DNA from: Deltaproteobacteria bacterium
GTDB lineage: Bacteria; Desulfobacterota; GWC2-55-46; DRQE01
Direction of reading: 5' to 3'
NCBI GenBank assembly: GCA_023134165.1
Contig: JAGLUZ010000066.1
Location: forward strand, 1 to 33,113
DNA: 33,113 nucleotides
Positions within the stretch are counted from its first letter, which is position 1, and each line of letters opens with the position of its first letter. Made by a program: the position numbers and the translations under genes. Of the stretch, positions 13,036 to 28,374 are shown in pieces. Below the pieces are notes generated by a model. The model had not been told where the DNA came from and made no database searches. It was given only the letters and a program-made list of their open reading frames with translations.

Positions 13036-14715
13036 TTATGCCTCTATGACATTAAAGATGCCTGGAACGTCGAGGACAATGACAATCTCTCCTGTACCAA
13101 GGATACTAGCACCAGAGACACCTTCCACTCGTTCCGGTAGTGCGTCAATGTATTTACCGAGAGGTTTTATGACGGTCTCAACCTTACCGAGAAAATCATC
13201 GACAATAAAACCAACACGTTTTTGGAGAAGCCGAACTAAGATAACAGAGTAAAACTTATCTTGATTCTCTTCTTTTTCCATGCCAAGTACTTCAGAAAGA
13301 CCAAGTATGGGGATTGCCTGACCTCGTAACATATAGACGAATTGTCCTTTAATGGACTCAATATCCTCAGTCTTTATGCGAAGTGTCTCGTCAACATAAT
13401 TTAGCGGGATGCCGTAGGTTGTAGGGCCTTCTTTTAAGAGAAAGAGCTGAACAATTGCAAGTGTGAGTGGCATCTTTATGGTAAAACGTGTCCATGAGCC
13501 AACTTTATAGGCAACCTCTACATTACCGCCAAGTTTTTCTATATTTGTCTTTACCACATCCATTCCAACGCCTCTGCCTGAGAGGTCGTCAACGACCTTG
13601 GAAGTTGAGAAACCAGAGTGGAAGATTAAATTTATACTTTCTTTATCATCAAGAAGTTTTGCCTCCTCCTCTGTTATTACGCCTTTTTTTACAGCAACCT
13701 CTCGTAAGGTCTCAGGGTTTAGCCCTTTACCGTCGTCCTCAACAACAACATAGACATGGTTGTGTTCATGGTACGCCTTTAGTATTACAGTACCAACCTC
13801 GGGTTTTCCAGCAAGTTTACGTTCTTCTGTACTCTCCAGACCGTGGCTAATTGCGTTACGTACCATATGGAGGAGGGGATCATTAAGTACCTCGATGATG
13901 GTCTTATCAAGTTCAGTTTCCTCACCAATTATCTTAAGCTCAACTTCTTTTAGTAGGGGTCTAGAGATATCACGCGCAAGGCGGTAGAACTTGTTAAATA
14001 ATTGTTTTATCGGTACCATTCTAATAGATAGCACCTCACTTTGAATCTGTGAAGAGATGGAGGCTATGAATGAGGTAACATCCTCAAATGCTTTGTTCTG
14101 AATCTCGCTCTTTAATTGGAGGAGCCGAGAGCGTCCAGCCGCTAGCTCTCCGACAAGGTTTACGAGTTTATCAAGTCTTCCCGTGGAGACGCGCATGTAG
14201 GAGGATTCAATAGCCTCTGCTTTTCTTCTTCCACGAGCCCTGCGTACATCTTTCCTTCTATTTGTACCACCATCTGTGTCATTTAAAAATTCTTCATCTG
14301 AGCTCTCTTGACTTGGCACAGGAGCCCCTGATGCAAGTGCGTCTATTTCATCAAAAAGTGAGGAGGTGTCTCTTGTTACCTCAACACCCTTTATAAAGTC
14401 AGCAAGAACACCTCTGGCCATATCTAGACCACGAAAGAAGGTATCATTAATCTCAGGGAAGTAAGATATCTCTTTATCCCTAAGTTTTCCGAGGATATTC
14501 TCCATCTTGTGGGCAAGGTCAGATAGCTCGGTTAGCCCAATAAACCCGGCATTGCCCTTTAGGGTATGCATAGAGCGAAAAACTTTTTTTATAAGTTCCT
14601 CGTCAGTTGGGTTCTTCTCTAGGGTAACAAGCTCTTTGGCCGTAGTCTCAATAAGTTCTTGAGACTCGTCAACAAACTCGCCGTATAGTTCTTTTAGGTC
14701 TAGATCATCGCTCAT
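13036..14715 (-). CDS. cheA: Chemotaxis histidine kinase CheA (Hpt, dimerisation, HATPase, CheW-like; no obvious P2)
   Basis: Hpt site RSMHTLKGNAGFIGL, STGRLDKLVNLVGEL, LLHMVRNAISHGLE, GRGVGMDVVKTNI, C-terminal CheW-like domain. Confidence 0.97.
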   Translation of the reverse strand: MSDDLDLKELYGEFVDESQELIETTAKELVTLEKNPTDEELIKKVFRSMHTLKGNAGFIGLTELSDLAHKMENILGKLRDKEISYFPEINDTFFRGLDMARGVLADFIKGVEVTRDTSSLFDEIDALASGAPVPSQESSDEEFLNDTDGGTNRRKDVRRARGRRKAEAIESSYMRVSTGRLDKLVNLVGELAAGRSRLLQLKSEIQNKAFEDVTSFIASISSQIQSEVLSIRMVPIKQLFNKFYRLARDISRPLLKEVELKIIGEETELDKTIIEVLNDPLLHMVRNAISHGLESTEERKLAGKPEVGTVILKAYHEHNHVYVVVEDDGKGLNPETLREVAVKKGVITEEEAKLLDDKESINLIFHSGFSTSKVVDDLSGRGVGMDVVKTNIEKLGGNVEVAYKVGSWTRFTIKMPLTLAIVQLFLLKEGPTTYGIPLNYVDETLRIKTEDIESIKGQFVYMLRGQAIPILGLSEVLGMEKEENQDKFYSVILVRLLQKRVGFIVDDFLGKVETVIKPLGKYIDALPERVEGVSGASILGTGEIVIVLDVPGIFNVIEA

Positions 14716-14720
14716 GTTTT

Positions 14721-15086
14721 TTAACCTATCGCACCTTCAACAGCCTCTAGTAGCTCTGGTGGCTGAAAGGGCTTTGTTAGGAATTTAGTTGCACCAAGTT
14801 CCATGGCCTGTTTCCTGTCCGCGTCTCCCTTCTCACTCGTAAGCATTATGATTGGAACATCTTTAAAAGGGGTTTTGGTCTTTATCTCTTTAAGCACCTC
14901 TAGTCCGTTCATCCTAGGCATCATGATATCAAGGATGATGAGGTCAAATGTTCCTAGAGCCAACTTCTCTAAAGCCTCAATGCCGTCATTCGCTGTTGTT
15001 ACTTCATAACCCTTGTATTTCAGGGTAAAACTTATGAATTTCTGTGTGGCTGGCGAATCCTCGGCGCTTAGTATTTTTTTTGGCAT
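14721..15086 (-). CDS. cheY: CheY-like response regulator
   Basis: KILSAEDSPATQKFI...DLIILDIMMPRMNG...IMLTSEKG...FLTKPF; 121 aa. Confidence 0.93.
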   Translation of the reverse strand: MPKKILSAEDSPATQKFISFTLKYKGYEVTTANDGIEALEKLALGTFDLIILDIMMPRMNGLEVLKEIKTKTPFKDVPIIMLTSEKGDADRKQAMELGATKFLTKPFQPPELLEAVEGAIG

Positions 15087-15165: not shown

Positions 15166-16029
15166 TTATTTGAGTTCGGGTTTTTGGTAGATCATCCCGC
15201 CGGGTTGAAAGGTCATCTTAAAAGGTACCTTTCTAACATCCACACTCTCGGCATTGCCAAGGAGGAGGTAGCCACCAGGGGCGAGCATATCAAAGATGCT
15301 CTTTGATATTTTCTCTTTAACTTCATCAGGAAAATATATAAAAACATTTCTACAAAAAACAAAATCGAATTTTTTTCTTCTATCTGCCATAAAGCCACCA
15401 ATACCAGTAGAAAGGTTAAGCTGGCTATAGGTGATGTCATTTTTTATGGAATCTATTACCTCTAAATTTGAACCGTTATTTTTGAAGTATTTTTGACGTA
15501 AATTTACGGGAAAATTCTCCATTCTATAGTCTGGAAAGATGCCTGTTTTTGCGGTCTTTAAAATATTTGTTGAGATATCTGTTGCAAGCAGTTCGTGTGT
15601 CCAACCAAGCAGGGTTGGGAAAAGTTCATTTAAAATTATAGATAGTGTTACGGGTTCTTCACCAGAGGAGCAGGCTGCACTCCAAATTCTAAAGGTTTTA
15701 TCCCCTTCTTTGGCCTTTCTCTCGCCAGCCTCTTTTAGGAGTATATTCTTAAAAGACTCAAGTTGCTCAGGGTTTCTAAAGAAGCTAGTCTCATGAACAG
15801 TAATGAGATTTATGAGTTCTTGAAACTCCCCAGAGGTTGTTGGGCTATACTTTAGATAATAATAATACTCCTCAACATTAGTAAGAGAGTTTGCAATCAT
15901 TCTCTCTCTAATACGGTACTCTAGGTAATCATTTCTAGTATCTCTGATATATATACCAGTTCTCTCGGAGATAAGATCTCTTATGATGGTAAAGTCTCTT
16001 TGAGGAATTCTAATTTCAATATCAACCAT
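15166..16029 (-). CDS. cheR: Chemotaxis protein methyltransferase CheR
   Basis: TVHETSFFRNPEQL, IWSAACSSGEEPVTLSI, LLATDIS, FDFVFCRNVFIYF, LLLGNAES. Confidence 0.95.
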   Translation of the reverse strand: MVDIEIRIPQRDFTIIRDLISERTGIYIRDTRNDYLEYRIRERMIANSLTNVEEYYYYLKYSPTTSGEFQELINLITVHETSFFRNPEQLESFKNILLKEAGERKAKEGDKTFRIWSAACSSGEEPVTLSIILNELFPTLLGWTHELLATDISTNILKTAKTGIFPDYRMENFPVNLRQKYFKNNGSNLEVIDSIKNDITYSQLNLSTGIGGFMADRRKKFDFVFCRNVFIYFPDEVKEKISKSIFDMLAPGGYLLLGNAESVDVRKVPFKMTFQPGGMIYQKPELK

Positions 16030-16031
16030 TC

Positions 16032-18029
16032 TTAATTAGCCCCGAGTGCTGTTTTTGCGGCTTCTTTAACAAACCTGTTAGTATCAGTTAATAGCACCTC
16101 AATATCTTTTTCAAAACCCTTAATCTCACCAGCACTCTTTGCTGCGGCCTCACGAACCTTCCAGGAATTATCACTAAGCAAACGTCTAAGGGTGTCGTGA
16201 GATTTTTGAGAACTAAATGTGTGGAGAGCTTCGGCAAGTGTTTTTCTAACGTCCTCGTCTTGGTCAGTTACTAGCTCAATTAGGGCTTTCTCGCCAGCTG
16301 TGCCACCGATACTTACGAGTGAGCGAACACAAGCTAATCTTACACCACCAATCTCGTCCTGTAGACCATCTATCAGGCGCACGGCCGAGCGTTCGTCACC
16401 GATTGCACCGAGTGCGAGTGCAGAGTAATATCTGACCCAAATATCATTATCATTTAGGGTGATGCAAAGTGGCTCAACCCCACGTTTGTCTTTTAGGTCT
16501 CCAAGGACAATGGCCGCACTTTTTCTAAGTACTGGGTCTTCGCTTCCAAGGAGCATTATTGGGAGTGAGCCTACGTTTATGTCTTGAACCTTTGCAAGGG
16601 CAAAGACACCAGCTTGTTTTACACCTGGGTCTTCGTCCTTTAAGAGTAGTTCCAGGTCTTTGGCCGCGCGCGTTTCTTTTGTGCCACCAAAGTACTCAGC
16701 CGCTGATTTTTTTTCTTGAGAAGTACCAGTGCTAAGAGCTTCATCAAGTTTTTCAAAGATACTCTCATTCTTTGGGTAGGCAGCAAGTGAGATGACAGCG
16801 GCTTTTCTAACTAAATCAGATTCATCATTTAGGAGGCCAAGGAGGATCTCTATTCCATTATCAGGGGTTTTTTTGCCAATAACCGAGACAATAGCCCTGC
16901 GTGCTTCGTCGTCAGTTTCATCTTTAAGTCTTGATAGAAGTGGGGCGAGGTCTTTTCTGGTTGCAACCTCATTAATGGCTTCTATGGCAAAGATGCGGGT
17001 CATTTTTTCATTTGCAGAGAGTTGTTCAATTAGGACAGGTAATGCGGCCCTGCCAATACTAGATAAGGCACTACGTGCTACACTGCCAACGTCTTCAAAG
17101 CTATCGCCTAGCATATTTGCAAGTGGGACAACGGCCTTCTCTGATTTTAACCAGCCAAGCACTCTTGCCCCGCTTTTCTTTAAAAAACTCTCTTCTTCAT
17201 CTAACGCCTTTAAGCAAGCCTCTTCTATAACCTCAATATTTAGAGATTTATCAAATTTTACATCACCTTCACCGTGACGCTCAGTGATGCTGACAGTTGC
17301 CGTAAGGATTGCTTTATTTAGTTCATTATTTTCTTTGTCCATGGCCTTTAAAAGGTCGATTATGGTGCTGGTATCAGCAAGTTTACCAAGAGCCTCAGCC
17401 ACTTGACCCTTGATAAATGTATCAGTTAAGAAAAGCTCAGTTAGACGTTTTGAGGCACGAATATCACCTATAATTCCAAGAGCCTCAACAGCACAGCTCT
17501 GGAGCCACATCTCTTCGTTATCAAGGAAAGTAAGTAGTGACTCTGTTGCTGTCTTATCGCGAAGTTTACCAAGGGATTGGATTACGTAGTACTGAACATC
17601 AATTGAGGGGTTCTCTAGTGCGGTAATGAGGTGCCCAACAGCTTTTTTATCACCAACGTCACCAAGGACATCTGCGGCGTAGCGTACTGTATTTTCATTT
17701 TCATCACGAAGTGCCTCAATAACAAGGTCTATTGCAATCTCGCCGAGTCCGGTTAAAATCTCTACAGCCGCACTCCTAACTCGAGCGTCTTTGTCTTTCA
17801 GTACGGAGAAGAGGAGTGAGAGCCCGCGCTCGTCACCAATCTTAATTAGTGCCTCAACGGCAGCTTCTCGAACGAGCCATGAGTCATCACTAAAAGCACC
17901 AACAAGTGATGTTAGTGCTTCTTTTGCGCCCATCTCTCCGAGCATTCTACAGGCCTCGCGTCTGGCAAATTCATCACTACTCTTAAGTTCTTCAATTATG
18001 GCTTTTACACTCATTTTTTTCACCTTCAC
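16032..18029 (-). CDS. HEAT-repeat protein
   Basis: About 30-aa helical repeats throughout, e.g. DDSWLVREAAVEALIKIGDERGL, DNDIWVRYYSALALGAIGDERSA. Confidence 0.93.
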   Translation of the reverse strand: MKVKKMSVKAIIEELKSSDEFARREACRMLGEMGAKEALTSLVGAFSDDSWLVREAAVEALIKIGDERGLSLLFSVLKDKDARVRSAAVEILTGLGEIAIDLVIEALRDENENTVRYAADVLGDVGDKKAVGHLITALENPSIDVQYYVIQSLGKLRDKTATESLLTFLDNEEMWLQSCAVEALGIIGDIRASKRLTELFLTDTFIKGQVAEALGKLADTSTIIDLLKAMDKENNELNKAILTATVSITERHGEGDVKFDKSLNIEVIEEACLKALDEEESFLKKSGARVLGWLKSEKAVVPLANMLGDSFEDVGSVARSALSSIGRAALPVLIEQLSANEKMTRIFAIEAINEVATRKDLAPLLSRLKDETDDEARRAIVSVIGKKTPDNGIEILLGLLNDESDLVRKAAVISLAAYPKNESIFEKLDEALSTGTSQEKKSAAEYFGGTKETRAAKDLELLLKDEDPGVKQAGVFALAKVQDINVGSLPIMLLGSEDPVLRKSAAIVLGDLKDKRGVEPLCITLNDNDIWVRYYSALALGAIGDERSAVRLIDGLQDEIGGVRLACVRSLVSIGGTAGEKALIELVTDQDEDVRKTLAEALHTFSSQKSHDTLRRLLSDNSWKVREAAAKSAGEIKGFEKDIEVLLTDTNRFVKEAAKTALGAN

Positions 18030-18152: not shown

Positions 18153-19796
18153 TTATAGACCTGTGTCCTCAAAAGATGTATTAAATTCGCTTATTTTATT
18201 CTTTAACTCACCTGCACCACCGGCAAGTTCTTTAATAGCACTGATATTTTCTGCAGAGATATAATTGATAATTTCAATTGCTTGGAGGATTTGATCTGAA
18301 TCACTTTTCTGCGTTCTTGTGATATCAAACATAGAACGAATCATCTCCTTTACTTCTTCAATGACCTTAGTTACCTCAGAGTTTGCTTTTTCTTGTTCAA
18401 TGTTAGACTTAGCCACATCTCTCGTAGTGTCGACCATCTTCTTAACGGTCTCGCTAATCATCTCGCTTAGGCGAGCGTCATCCTTAATAAGTGTATCTAC
18501 TTCATGGATTATAGCAACCTCACTTTGAATGGCCTCAAGTACAGTGACGGTTTCTTTGGACTGACTAATGGTTGAGGCTGCAATGAGATTGCTCATTTCA
18601 GCTGATTTTTTTGTACTCTCAAGAATTTTTCTAAGAGCTTCACCTGCTTCGTTAGAGAGTTTAACCCCTTCCTCAGCACTCCATTTGCCCATCTCATTAG
18701 CCTGAATAACGTCATTTACCATGCCCTGAATACCGAGGACAATATCTCCAATCTCAACAGTTGATTGTGCTGTTTGATCTGCAAGTCGTTTTATCTCATC
18801 AGCTACAACGGCAAAACCTTTGCCGTGTTCACCAGCCTGAGCCGCAATTATTGAGGCATTTAAGGCTAGGAGGTTGGTTCTGTCAGTAATATCGTTAATT
18901 ACATTAATAATATCTCCTACTTCGCCAGATTTTTCACCTAGACGATGGATTACCTCAGCAGAGTCAACAACAATCTCACGGATACGTTTCATTCCGTTTA
19001 TGGTTTTTGAGGTTACAGTAGCACCAACCTCAGCGTCTGCCCGAACCTGATCAGCTAAGTCTGAGGAGAGGCCAGCCTTTTCATTAATATCTTTAATAGA
19101 GACGTCAATCCTTTTTATGGAACGAGAAGTATCCTCTGAGGACACAGTGAGTTTTGTGAAACGTTTCTTTACGCTATCAACGGAATTGACCATGGTCTCA
19201 ATGTTTGCAGAGACATCCTTGACTTGGTTAAAGAGTTCTTGGGTTGAGAGGCTTATTTTTTTATTTGAGGCAACCATATCAAGGATGGATTCAGTTGCTT
19301 TCTCTGCATTTGGGAATAATCTCTCGACCATATCAACAAGGACTATGATAGAGGCAGAGATACCTTCAATAGAGGTCGAGGTCTCTTCCATGGAAAAGGA
19401 CTGGGCCTCTGTGCCAAGGGATATTTGATCTGCTGTGGTAGATACTTTTCTAGAAAAATTAACAATATCTTCAAGTGAGGCAGTGAGGGATCTGAAGTTT
19501 AATGCAAGCTCATCGATTATGGCCGCCAGCGTTTCATCAGCGTTTTCTTTGGCCTCTCTAATCTGAGGGGAGTACTTACTCTTTGCAAGTGCATTAGAGG
19601 CCTTGATTACGGCACTGCTGGTTTTTTCCCCGCGTAAGTATAGGCTAAGTAAGACAGCACTGACTGTCATCAAGATTAAAAGAATATCAAGAATAACTAT
19701 ATCCACATAAACTCTGCTAATAAGGAGGAGACCAAGCAAAGCCAGAACGAGAATGTTCTGTAGAGGGATTTTTTTAAGTTGAGCCTTGAGATTCAT
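18153..19796 (-). CDS. Methyl-accepting chemotaxis protein with N-terminal TM hairpin, no sizeable periplasmic domain and atypical hairpin tip
   Basis: Tip [48 protein letters not shown]; two closely spaced TM segments in the first ~55 aa. 1-bp overlap with upstream receiver gene. Confidence 0.93.
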
Positions 19797-20188
19797 TAAG
19801 CGTCTCCGATGTCCTTATCAAGGATGTTGTATATGCATTCAATTACAACAGAAGGGCTAAAGGGTTTTTCTATATACTCTGTTGCTCCAATCTCTTTTGC
19901 TTTATCTTGTTGCTCTCTATCAGAGATGGCAGAGACCATTATTACTGGGATATCAGAAAGTTCTGGGTTTTTTTTGAGTTGTGCCATAGTCTCAAAACCA
20001 CTAAGTCCAGGCATCATTATGTCCATTAATATTATTACTGGTTTTGCAAATTCACCAGAGGCAAGTTTTTTTATAGCCTCTTCACCAGAGAGGGCGTAAG
20101 AAGGCTCAAATCCCTTAGAGAGCAAAAGATAGCTCATCATCTTATCGTGCCTTAAGTCGTCATCAATAATTAAAATCTTCCTCATCAT
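19796..20188 (-). CDS. Single-domain response regulator
   Basis: [19 protein letters not shown]...[14 protein letters not shown]...IMVSAISD...YIEKPF; RBS-like CGGAGG upstream. Confidence 0.92.
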
Positions 20189-20428: not shown

Positions 20429-20452
20429 AAAAAACCCACCGTTCTTGGTAGG
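20429..20452 (-). terminator. Intrinsic (rho-independent) terminator in the leader of the receiver-MCP operon
   Basis: Minus strand CCTACC-AAGAAC-GGTGGG then TTTTTT: 6-bp stem (one G-U), U-tract at 20429-20434. Confidence 0.75.
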
Positions 20453-20476
20453 CTGTTTTAAAATTACTGCTCTTTC

Positions 20477-20499
20477 CTCGGACGACCCCTCTATCCGAG
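20477..20499 (-). other. RNA hairpin between riboswitch-like element and terminator
   Basis: Minus strand CTCGGA-TAGAGGGGTCG-TCCGAG: perfect 6-bp stem, 11-nt loop. Confidence 0.5.
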
Positions 20500-20519
20500 A
20501 ATTAAAAAGATTTAGGTTT

Positions 20520-20600
20520 TAAAACTTGCTACTAAATCCTTGTACTCCCTGGCAGGTAGCTTTGCGCCCCATAGTTACCTATGGTTTGCCACTAGGTATT
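20520..20600 (-). promoter_or_regulatory. GEMM-I (cyclic-di-GMP) riboswitch-like aptamer
   Basis: Minus strand AGTGGCAAACCATAGGTAACTATGGGGCGCAAAGCTACC matches the GEMM-I core: GGCAAACC, 6-bp stem CCATAG/CTATGG capped by GNRA loop GTAA, then CGCAAAGC; followed by GCTAC...GTAGC stem. The 3' part is less canonical. Confidence 0.72.
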
Positions 20601-20667
20601 ACTTTTATTTAACACTTAACCTTGTGCGTCCCCTTTTTATAGTTAAATATTTTAGTAAGACAGTAGC

Positions 20668-26439: not shown

Positions 26440-28374
26440 TTAAATGCGTTCCTTTATCTCTCGAAGTCTTGTCTTGGCAAGCTCACTTACTTGTGGCTCT
26501 ACGTGTGAGGTTGCCTCAAAGATTGTACTTGTAATGTCTTCAAAGGTATTTTTATTGGACTTTATTTTTGCGTCTAAAGTAAGTCTTGATAGTGCCTCAA
26601 TTGCATTTATAGCAACAGGGGCGGCCGGGTCCTTTGCACCCGTATAGAGGGTCTTTAAGGCACTTGGAGTTGAGAGGCTACCAAGCCCTTTTATTGCCGT
26701 ACTCCTGACCCAGATATCTTCATCAGTAACAGCAAGTTGAAGGAGCTCTTCCCTATCACCATTAGAGAAGTTTGTAAGACTTTGAACAGCGGCAATCCTA
26801 ACACTTGTTTCTTCGTCAGCTAGGGCAATCCTAAGTGCGTCAAGGCCTTCAGAGAAACCAAGCGAGCCAAGGGCCTTGGCCGCGGCCTTTCTAATCTCTT
26901 TGTCTGCATCTTTCAGTGAAAGTTCAATATCTGGAAGAACCTCTTTTATTCCAAGGCCTCCGTATATAGTAGTAATATTTCTCCTTGTACGGGCGTCTTT
27001 ATCTGTAGAGTAATTTTTTAGAGCAGACAAGACCTCTTCTGGGTGCTTGCTTCCAATCATTGCAATGGCCTTTACAGCGGCCTCCTCAACATCAACATAC
27101 TTATCGTGGATGTGTTTGATTATATCAGGTAAGGCAGAGACGTCTTTTAGACGACCAATGGCAGTTAAAGAGCACTGGCGCGTATGACCGTAAGGGTCTT
27201 CAGCACCTTTTATAAGGGTTGGTAGGGCAGATTTGTCTCCTACCAAACCGAGTACGTGAGAGATAAAAGAGCGTGTCTTATCATCAGCACTCTCAAAAGC
27301 AAGAGAGAGAATCTCAATATTATCAGTACAAATTCTTATAAATGTCTCGGTAATTAATTCTTCAAGAGCCTCGTCATCTGAGTTGGCAAGCAAGGCACTT
27401 GCAGTCTCACTGCAACATGCATTTGAGCCCATGATACCGATAATTACAATAGCACCTTTCTTTACTTCTATTAGGGGCGAGTCCAGAAGCTCTACAATTG
27501 GCTCAAGGGTGACCCCTTGGCTAATAATCTTGCGTGCTTCTTCTTGCTCAGCTTTGGTTAGGTTCTCATAGATGTGAATAATATTTGTTAGAGCTGAGGT
27601 TCTTGTGCGACGCCCTTTATCACCAAGGGCATCTGTTAGGTGGGCAATGGCCTTAATATCAAGCGAGGAGCCAAGGGCATCGATTACGGCCTTCCTAAGG
27701 ACACTGTCAGAGAAAAAACGAATGAGCGGCTCAACAGGAACGCCTCTACCAATCTTACCAAGAGCCTCTAGGGTTGCAAACCTTAGCCACAGATTATCAT
27801 CATTATCACTCTCACCACTCTCACTGTGTAGGGCTTTTATTAGGGCGTTTATAACCTCCTGGCCGCCTATCTTACCAAGAGCCTCAGAGGCAGAGCCACG
27901 AACATTATCATCGGTGTCTTTTAGCAGTTTTGTTAGAGTGCCTATTACGTAAGTTATGGCCTCCTTAGAGTCTTCGTCGTCTTTTCCTGCACAGATATCG
28001 CCTATTATATCAACGGCAAATTTTCTAATATTTTCATCTTCATCGCCAAGGGTGGCTACGAGCTCTCTAAGTGCGGCTGGGCCAAGTTTTGTTAATAGTT
28101 CGGCGGCAGAGTTCCTGACCCCTGCATTATCCTCAACCCTAAGTGCCGATATAAGACCTTCAGCAAGATTTGATTTATTAAAGAAGGCCTCTTCAATTAC
28201 CTCAGTTGCGGCCTTCCTAACCCGCCAGCTCTCATCACCAAGTGCGCGCACAGCAAGCATAAAGGCCTCATTCTCTGAGTCCTTGCCCTTAAAGGCAAGA
28301 AGAGCACTAATACCACTTCTGCGTTCTTCCTCATTACCGTCTAGGATATTTTTTTTAAGTTCGTTAAGGTTCAT
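26440..28374 (-). CDS. HEAT-repeat protein
   Basis: Repeats such as DESWRVRKAATEVIEEAF, DEDENIRKFAVDIIGDIC, DEDIWVRSTAIKGLGSLS. Confidence 0.93.
   Translation of the reverse strand: MNLNELKKNILDGNEEERRSGISALLAFKGKDSENEAFMLAVRALGDESWRVRKAATEVIEEAFFNKSNLAEGLISALRVEDNAGVRNSAAELLTKLGPAALRELVATLGDEDENIRKFAVDIIGDICAGKDDEDSKEAITYVIGTLTKLLKDTDDNVRGSASEALGKIGGQEVINALIKALHSESGESDNDDNLWLRFATLEALGKIGRGVPVEPLIRFFSDSVLRKAVIDALGSSLDIKAIAHLTDALGDKGRRTRTSALTNIIHIYENLTKAEQEEARKIISQGVTLEPIVELLDSPLIEVKKGAIVIIGIMGSNACCSETASALLANSDDEALEELITETFIRICTDNIEILSLAFESADDKTRSFISHVLGLVGDKSALPTLIKGAEDPYGHTRQCSLTAIGRLKDVSALPDIIKHIHDKYVDVEEAAVKAIAMIGSKHPEEVLSALKNYSTDKDARTRRNITTIYGGLGIKEVLPDIELSLKDADKEIRKAAAKALGSLGFSEGLDALRIALADEETSVRIAAVQSLTNFSNGDREELLQLAVTDEDIWVRSTAIKGLGSLSTPSALKTLYTGAKDPAAPVAINAIEALSRLTLDAKIKSNKNTFEDITSTIFEATSHVEPQVSELAKTRLREIKERI

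Follow-up and report, generated by a model that had tools for sequence, protein, structure and literature searches.

The minus strand of the 33-kb window (the whole stretch of DNA analysed) carries a chemosensory operon that runs from a receiver gene through MCP, HEAT-repeat, CheR and CheY-like genes to CheA, and ahead of it lies a leader containing a GEMM-I aptamer and an intrinsic terminator (Table 1). The operon starts 240 nt past the terminator, on the same strand as the aptamer, so that the position given in the preliminary description, upstream of the receiver-MCP-HEAT-CheR-CheY-CheA genes, is borne out by orientation and by Pfam domains. The window contains two similar chemosensory modules, and two long HEAT-repeat proteins (16032-18029 and 26440-28374), each adjoining a CheR gene. 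A rubrerythrin-like (ferritin-like) protein at 1638-2114 sits between CheB-like and response-regulator kinase genes in a signalling cluster.

Table 1. Features of the leader and of the operon behind it, in window coordinates.
Feature	Position	Strand	Basis
GEMM-I aptamer, corrected (P1 region, P2, lengthened P3, J3-1)	~20475..20607	-	R1 + RF01051
G20 equivalent, predicts c-di-GMP type	20590	-	alignment with 46 elements
P2 stem CCAUAG/CUAUGG, GUAA (GNRA) loop	20569..20584	-	sequence; pairs covary in relatives
P3 5' strand GCUACCUGCC	20551..20560	-	common to six relatives
53-nt insert lengthening P3, imperfect hairpin	20498..20550	-	fold -12.2 kcal/mol, 20/500 shuffles as good
True aptamer 3' half: P3 3' strand GGAUAGAGGGGU, then J3-1	20476..20496	-	weight matrix + R1
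C92/C93 equivalents in J3-1	20481-20480	-	alignment
Alternative hairpin CUCGGAU...GUCCGAG	20477..20499	-	-12.6 kcal/mol for 28 nt
Intrinsic terminator AGCCUACC-AAGAAC-GGUGGGUU + U run	20429..20454	-	pattern scan
Receiver protein, first gene after leader	19796..20188	-	Pfam Response_reg, 76 bits
MCP	18153..19796	-	Pfam MCPsignal, 129 bits
HEAT-repeat protein	16032..18029	-	Pfam HEAT_2
CheR	15166..16029	-	Pfam CheR, 166 bits
Single-domain receiver (CheY-like)	14721..15086	-	Pfam Response_reg, 109 bits
CheA	13036..14715	-	Pfam Hpt, H-kinase_dim, HATPase_c, CheW

The element is a GEMM-I aptamer, albeit a divergent one by its sequence. When the full Rfam library was run against the window, RF01051 (c-di-GMP-I) was the sole RNA family above threshold, matching minus strand 20600-20517 with 38.6 bits (cut-off 35, E 2.7e-4). 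A second covariance model, R1, was built from the six elements nearest in sequence, with the window sequence left out; all six, which share a GCUACCU...GAGGGG core with one another and the window, are G20 elements of two same-family genomes (G003:C155, C203 and C112; G004:C204 twice and C100). R1 matched 20607-20467 with 45.0 bits and E 2.1e-12, E-values from this model being rough because its calibration was shortened, and found no other site in the window with an E of 10 or less. The GEMM-I core GGCAAACC-AUAGGUAACUAU-GGGGCGCAAAGC occupies minus-strand positions 20590-20559 and includes a perfect 6-bp P2 capped by GUAA, as the preliminary description had claimed of its conserved core with a GNRA-capped stem. 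That description had proposed searching with Rfam GEMM models and looking for covariation among relatives, and both bear out its identification of a GEMM-I-like riboswitch: across 46 aligned GEMM-I elements the structure covaries, with 87% standard pairs and none of 500 shuffles reaching the observed value on any measure, in an alignment that was fitted to the structure and so is biased that way, and whose count is inflated by kinship among the sequences. It might be argued that the likeness arose by chance, the Rfam score being merely 3.6 bits above cut-off and the 3' half of that match misplaced. We regard this as vanishingly improbable and, indeed, already refuted, by the R1 match from a model that never saw the window and by a scan in which the true 3' half was independently the top match in the window, in the correct place and on the correct strand.

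That scan used a weight matrix derived from the six relatives' 3' part, with one inserted base permitted at a penalty of 4 bits. Among 66,184 positions scored, the best site was 20496, with 21.9 bits against 13.5 at the next distinct place, and R1 picks the same 3' half. Within the shared core, the 5' part in the window is 20560-20551 and the 3' part 20496-20476; by this comparison with relatives we reject the 3' half placed by Rfam at 20540-20517. Rfam scores above threshold with the wrong half because the 53-nt insert in P3 displaces the true one. The length of the P3 arm is highly variable among GEMM-I elements of the class, and comparable inserts occur in other members.

With aptamer positions named after PMC3764141, the window retains G20, C22, A23, A25, C44, G45, A47-A49, the GNRA loop and G83. 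The GC-AAA...GC inner pairs of P2 accompany its loop, and the six pairs of the stem are intact while its sequence differs from the relatives on both sides. The P3 receptor side is present, as are both nucleotides of the C44-G83 interhelical pair, with GCUACCUG...GGAUAGAGGGG common to the relatives. Other positions have diverged. The P1 helix with G14-C93 is lost, with C standing at position 14 and three of the four P1 pairs of the model failing, and a CCU/AGG pairing is a possible substitute; we have not treated P1 as defining, since Cd1 does not require it. The A18 equivalent is G, as in one other element, and the CC of J3-1, in register in 42 of the 46 elements, is shifted by one inserted nucleotide beside C92, which pairs with the ligand and is, with A47, one of its contacts.

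The preliminary description recorded a separate hairpin at 20499-20477. The hairpin exists, and only two of 500 shuffles were as stable in a comparison made post hoc, but it is not separate: since the true 3' half lies at 20496-20476, it is another fold of the aptamer's own 3' strand, and since it would use part of P3 and C92/C93, it excludes the ligand-binding fold. Imposing the aptamer fold costs 11.2 kcal/mol in the window as against 0.4-4.5 in the six relatives, energies that leave out tertiary contacts and ligand; by these figures the window copy has the strongest competing fold of the seven.

Position 20 is G in 19 of the 46 elements and A in 27. We take A20 as the mark of GEMM-Ib, and on that basis the genome's three remaining GEMM-I copies, a tandem pair at G000:C31:1484-1676 (L073) and one at G000:C79:16621-16715 (L072), all having A20, are predicted to be of the cGAMP type. 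The window aptamer is predicted to be of the c-di-GMP (GEMM-Ia) type instead, a prediction because position 20 is a selectivity factor and no hard filter (PMC9262584), and would presumably bind c-di-GMP. The genome encodes GGDEF proteins with the canonical Asp. Two other loci, G000:C112:7482-7952 (L085) and G000:C115:9411-9929 (L087), encode GGDEF domains with Ser, in the motifs GHLCGS and GHLVGS; we assume that the Hypr Ser belongs in the GHxxGD motif, making it GHxxGS. The Hypr signature has been described (PMC6456294), and the sequences of these Hypr-like domains suggest cGAMP synthesis in the same genome. With canonical and Hypr-like GGDEF proteins both encoded, both messengers are plausible.

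The terminator, a stem followed by a U run as first described, is real: it has eight pairs and a T run, with a hairpin of -10.7 kcal/mol. It is separate from the aptamer strands, the aptamer ending at about 20475 and the terminator starting at 20454, some 20 nt behind. A duplex search of the whole leader for an antiterminator gave a best duplex equalled by 56% of shuffles; the best structured candidate, the P3 arm against the linker and terminator arm, was equalled by 18%; and folding transcripts that end at the terminator 5' arm gave no antiterminator that beat shuffles. Terminator pairing was near 1 whether the aptamer was imposed or left free. Pairing of the P3 3' strand with the terminator is possible in three G20 relatives, but shuffles equal it in 8-20% of trials, so that even in these it is suggestive only. 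Since no significant antiterminator was found, it is from the family that we infer ligand-controlled readthrough, reasonably in our view. Of the proposal that c-di-GMP sets readthrough into the operon, then, the terminator and its position stand, but the control itself is putative, the terminator being predicted to form equally well with or without the imposed aptamer. The A20 copies are built differently, in that the P1 3' strand GCCAAAG of the second C31 copy and of the C79 copy is part of the terminator 5' arm and the aptamer leads directly into the terminator. The pilM ON switch is arranged in this way, its terminator taking in the 3' strand of the aptamer itself, whereas Cd1, an OFF switch, keeps terminator and aptamer apart (PMC9262584), the arrangement also seen in the window. 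No sigma-70-type promoter was matched just upstream of the aptamer; two such matches lie between terminator and gene, at 20328-20301 and 20350-20321, within chance expectation.

Synteny was considered as support for the riboswitch and rejected. Two same-family genomes have an orthologous operon, with MCPs 56% and 62% identical, and they are the sole genomes of the class found with one; a scan of genome contigs returned the same two (the Deltaproteobacteria MAGs CSMAG_1753 and CSMAG_1414) and distant MCPs. Both orthologous operons have the same GAF and receiver genes upstream, and in neither does the aptamer occur in the interval separating the two receiver genes, Rfam giving no GEMM-I match there even at E 1; matches to lysM-TM7, mir-459 and snoRNA fell far under their cut-offs and were dismissed. 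Consequently the riboswitch either was acquired here or has been lost from both relatives. The orthologous cluster of G003 has one more gene between GAF and receiver (L064 8111-8521), judged by eye to be a Fur-like regulator. Conservation in related genomes, another check proposed at the outset, is seen for the family, which is kept across the class, but not at the syntenic site in the two operon-bearing relatives. GEMM-I elements are present in 30 of 63 genomes of the class, the widening of relatives to that rank having added four genomes. Among the downstream genes listed, which were mostly judged by eye from sequence, the window has the sole GEMM-I ahead of chemosensory genes, the recurrent downstream proteins being secreted, TPR-like and, once, LapG-like (Peptidase_C93). 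The last of these follows a G20 GEMM-I at L074 2271-2358 (G001:C110), adhesion of this kind being a typical c-di-GMP-regulated function. At L066 6336-6661 (G004:C204), two G20 GEMM-I stand in series, each with its own strong terminator, before a small PepSY-like secreted protein.

In proposing a function for this leader we probably have before us a divergent G20 GEMM-I aptamer with a long P3 that acts as a transcription attenuator, ending transcription of the chemosensory operon through the terminator some 20 nt behind it. For this speak the two covariance models, the unique 3' half, the covariation over 46 elements, the retention of G20, A47-A49, C44, G83 and the GNRA loop, the terminator, the same-strand operon, the canonical GGDEF proteins, the Cd1 and pilM layouts and the place of Bc1 before MCP genes; against it stand the want of an antiterminator beyond chance, terminator pairing that does not respond to the imposed aptamer, the 11.2 kcal/mol cost, the loss of P1, the G at A18, the J3-1 insertion, the absence of the aptamer from the syntenic gap of both orthologous operons, and promoter matches that lie behind the terminator and not ahead of the aptamer. 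High c-di-GMP would lower expression of the receiver/MCP/CheA module, since a separate terminator like that of Cd1, and unlike that of pilM, makes an OFF direction the likelier, if only marginally so. The same attenuator might nevertheless work as an ON switch, in which the bound aptamer would lower termination, for instance through a pseudoknot between the exposed P3 loop and the terminator arm. In the known example ahead of MCP genes, Bc1, transcription is switched on (PMC11218506), and the P3 loop is able to pair with the linker and terminator arm; but that pairing is equalled by 18% of shuffles, and the terminator includes no aptamer strand, in contrast to the ON-type copies elsewhere in this genome, where the P1 3' strand serves as a terminator arm. 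We therefore think an ON switch rather unlikely. More doubtful is a reading that makes the lengthened P3 arm the switching strand of the expression platform. Without ligand the hairpin at 20499-20477 would close, the P3 loop would pair with the linker and terminator 5' arm, and the operon would escape termination; with c-di-GMP bound, P3 would form and the terminator would be released.

A different explanation denies the aptamer any such role: it would be a relic, in decay or very weak; the terminator would end the transcript of the upstream receiver gene, and the operon would be served by its own promoter between 20429 and 20188. The divergence of P1 and J3-1, the strong competing fold, the undetectable antiterminator, the two promoter-like sites and the lack of conservation at the syntenic site are all consistent with decay. 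Yet the window retains G20, A47-A49 and C44/G83 together with the GNRA loop and its receptor side in P3, P2 keeps six pairs though both of its sides differ from the relatives, the promoter-like sites are no more than the chance number, and Cd1 binds c-di-GMP although it lacks a canonical P1 (PMC9262584). On balance we consider a relic unlikely, if still worth serious attention, and prefer the attenuator.

An attenuator of this kind would not be without analogues. The Bc1 riboswitch of the Bacillus cereus group is an established case of GEMM-I ahead of chemoreceptor genes: it likewise precedes MCP genes, uses intrinsic termination and has a long leader of ~220 bp, but its action on transcription has been experimentally shown and it has two terminators (PMC11218506); the window differs in its lengthened P3, the absence of a canonical P1, its one clear terminator and the whole che operon downstream. 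Cd1, of the Clostridioides difficile flagellar operon, shares the separation of aptamer and terminator strands, the dispensability of a canonical P1 next to the pocket and the OFF layout, but has a demonstrated antiterminator, in which the aptamer 3' strand pairs with the terminator arm (PMC9262584), where none was found in the window. The Geobacter GEMM-Ib (cGAMP) elements, such as pilM (PMC9262584, PMC6456294), belong to the same aptamer family, and three copies of that type occur elsewhere in the genome; the window aptamer differs from them in carrying G20, where they have A20, and in a terminator separate from P1. Closest in sequence are the G003 and G004 elements, most of which have a separate downstream terminator like the window, but which for the most part retain P1, carry a shorter P3 loop and stand before genes for secreted or surface-type proteins. 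What is added here is the corrected anatomy and a prediction of ligand subtype set against the copies of the same genome. For annotation, the case is a caution that an above-threshold Rfam match can carry a wrong 3' half. If the element is functional, a complete chemosensory operon would be tied to c-di-GMP in an uncultured lineage where 27 of the 46 GEMM-I RNAs surveyed are predicted to be of the cGAMP type; and were the P3 arm indeed the switching strand, one genome would use one aptamer family to control chemosensory genes by c-di-GMP and others by cGAMP.
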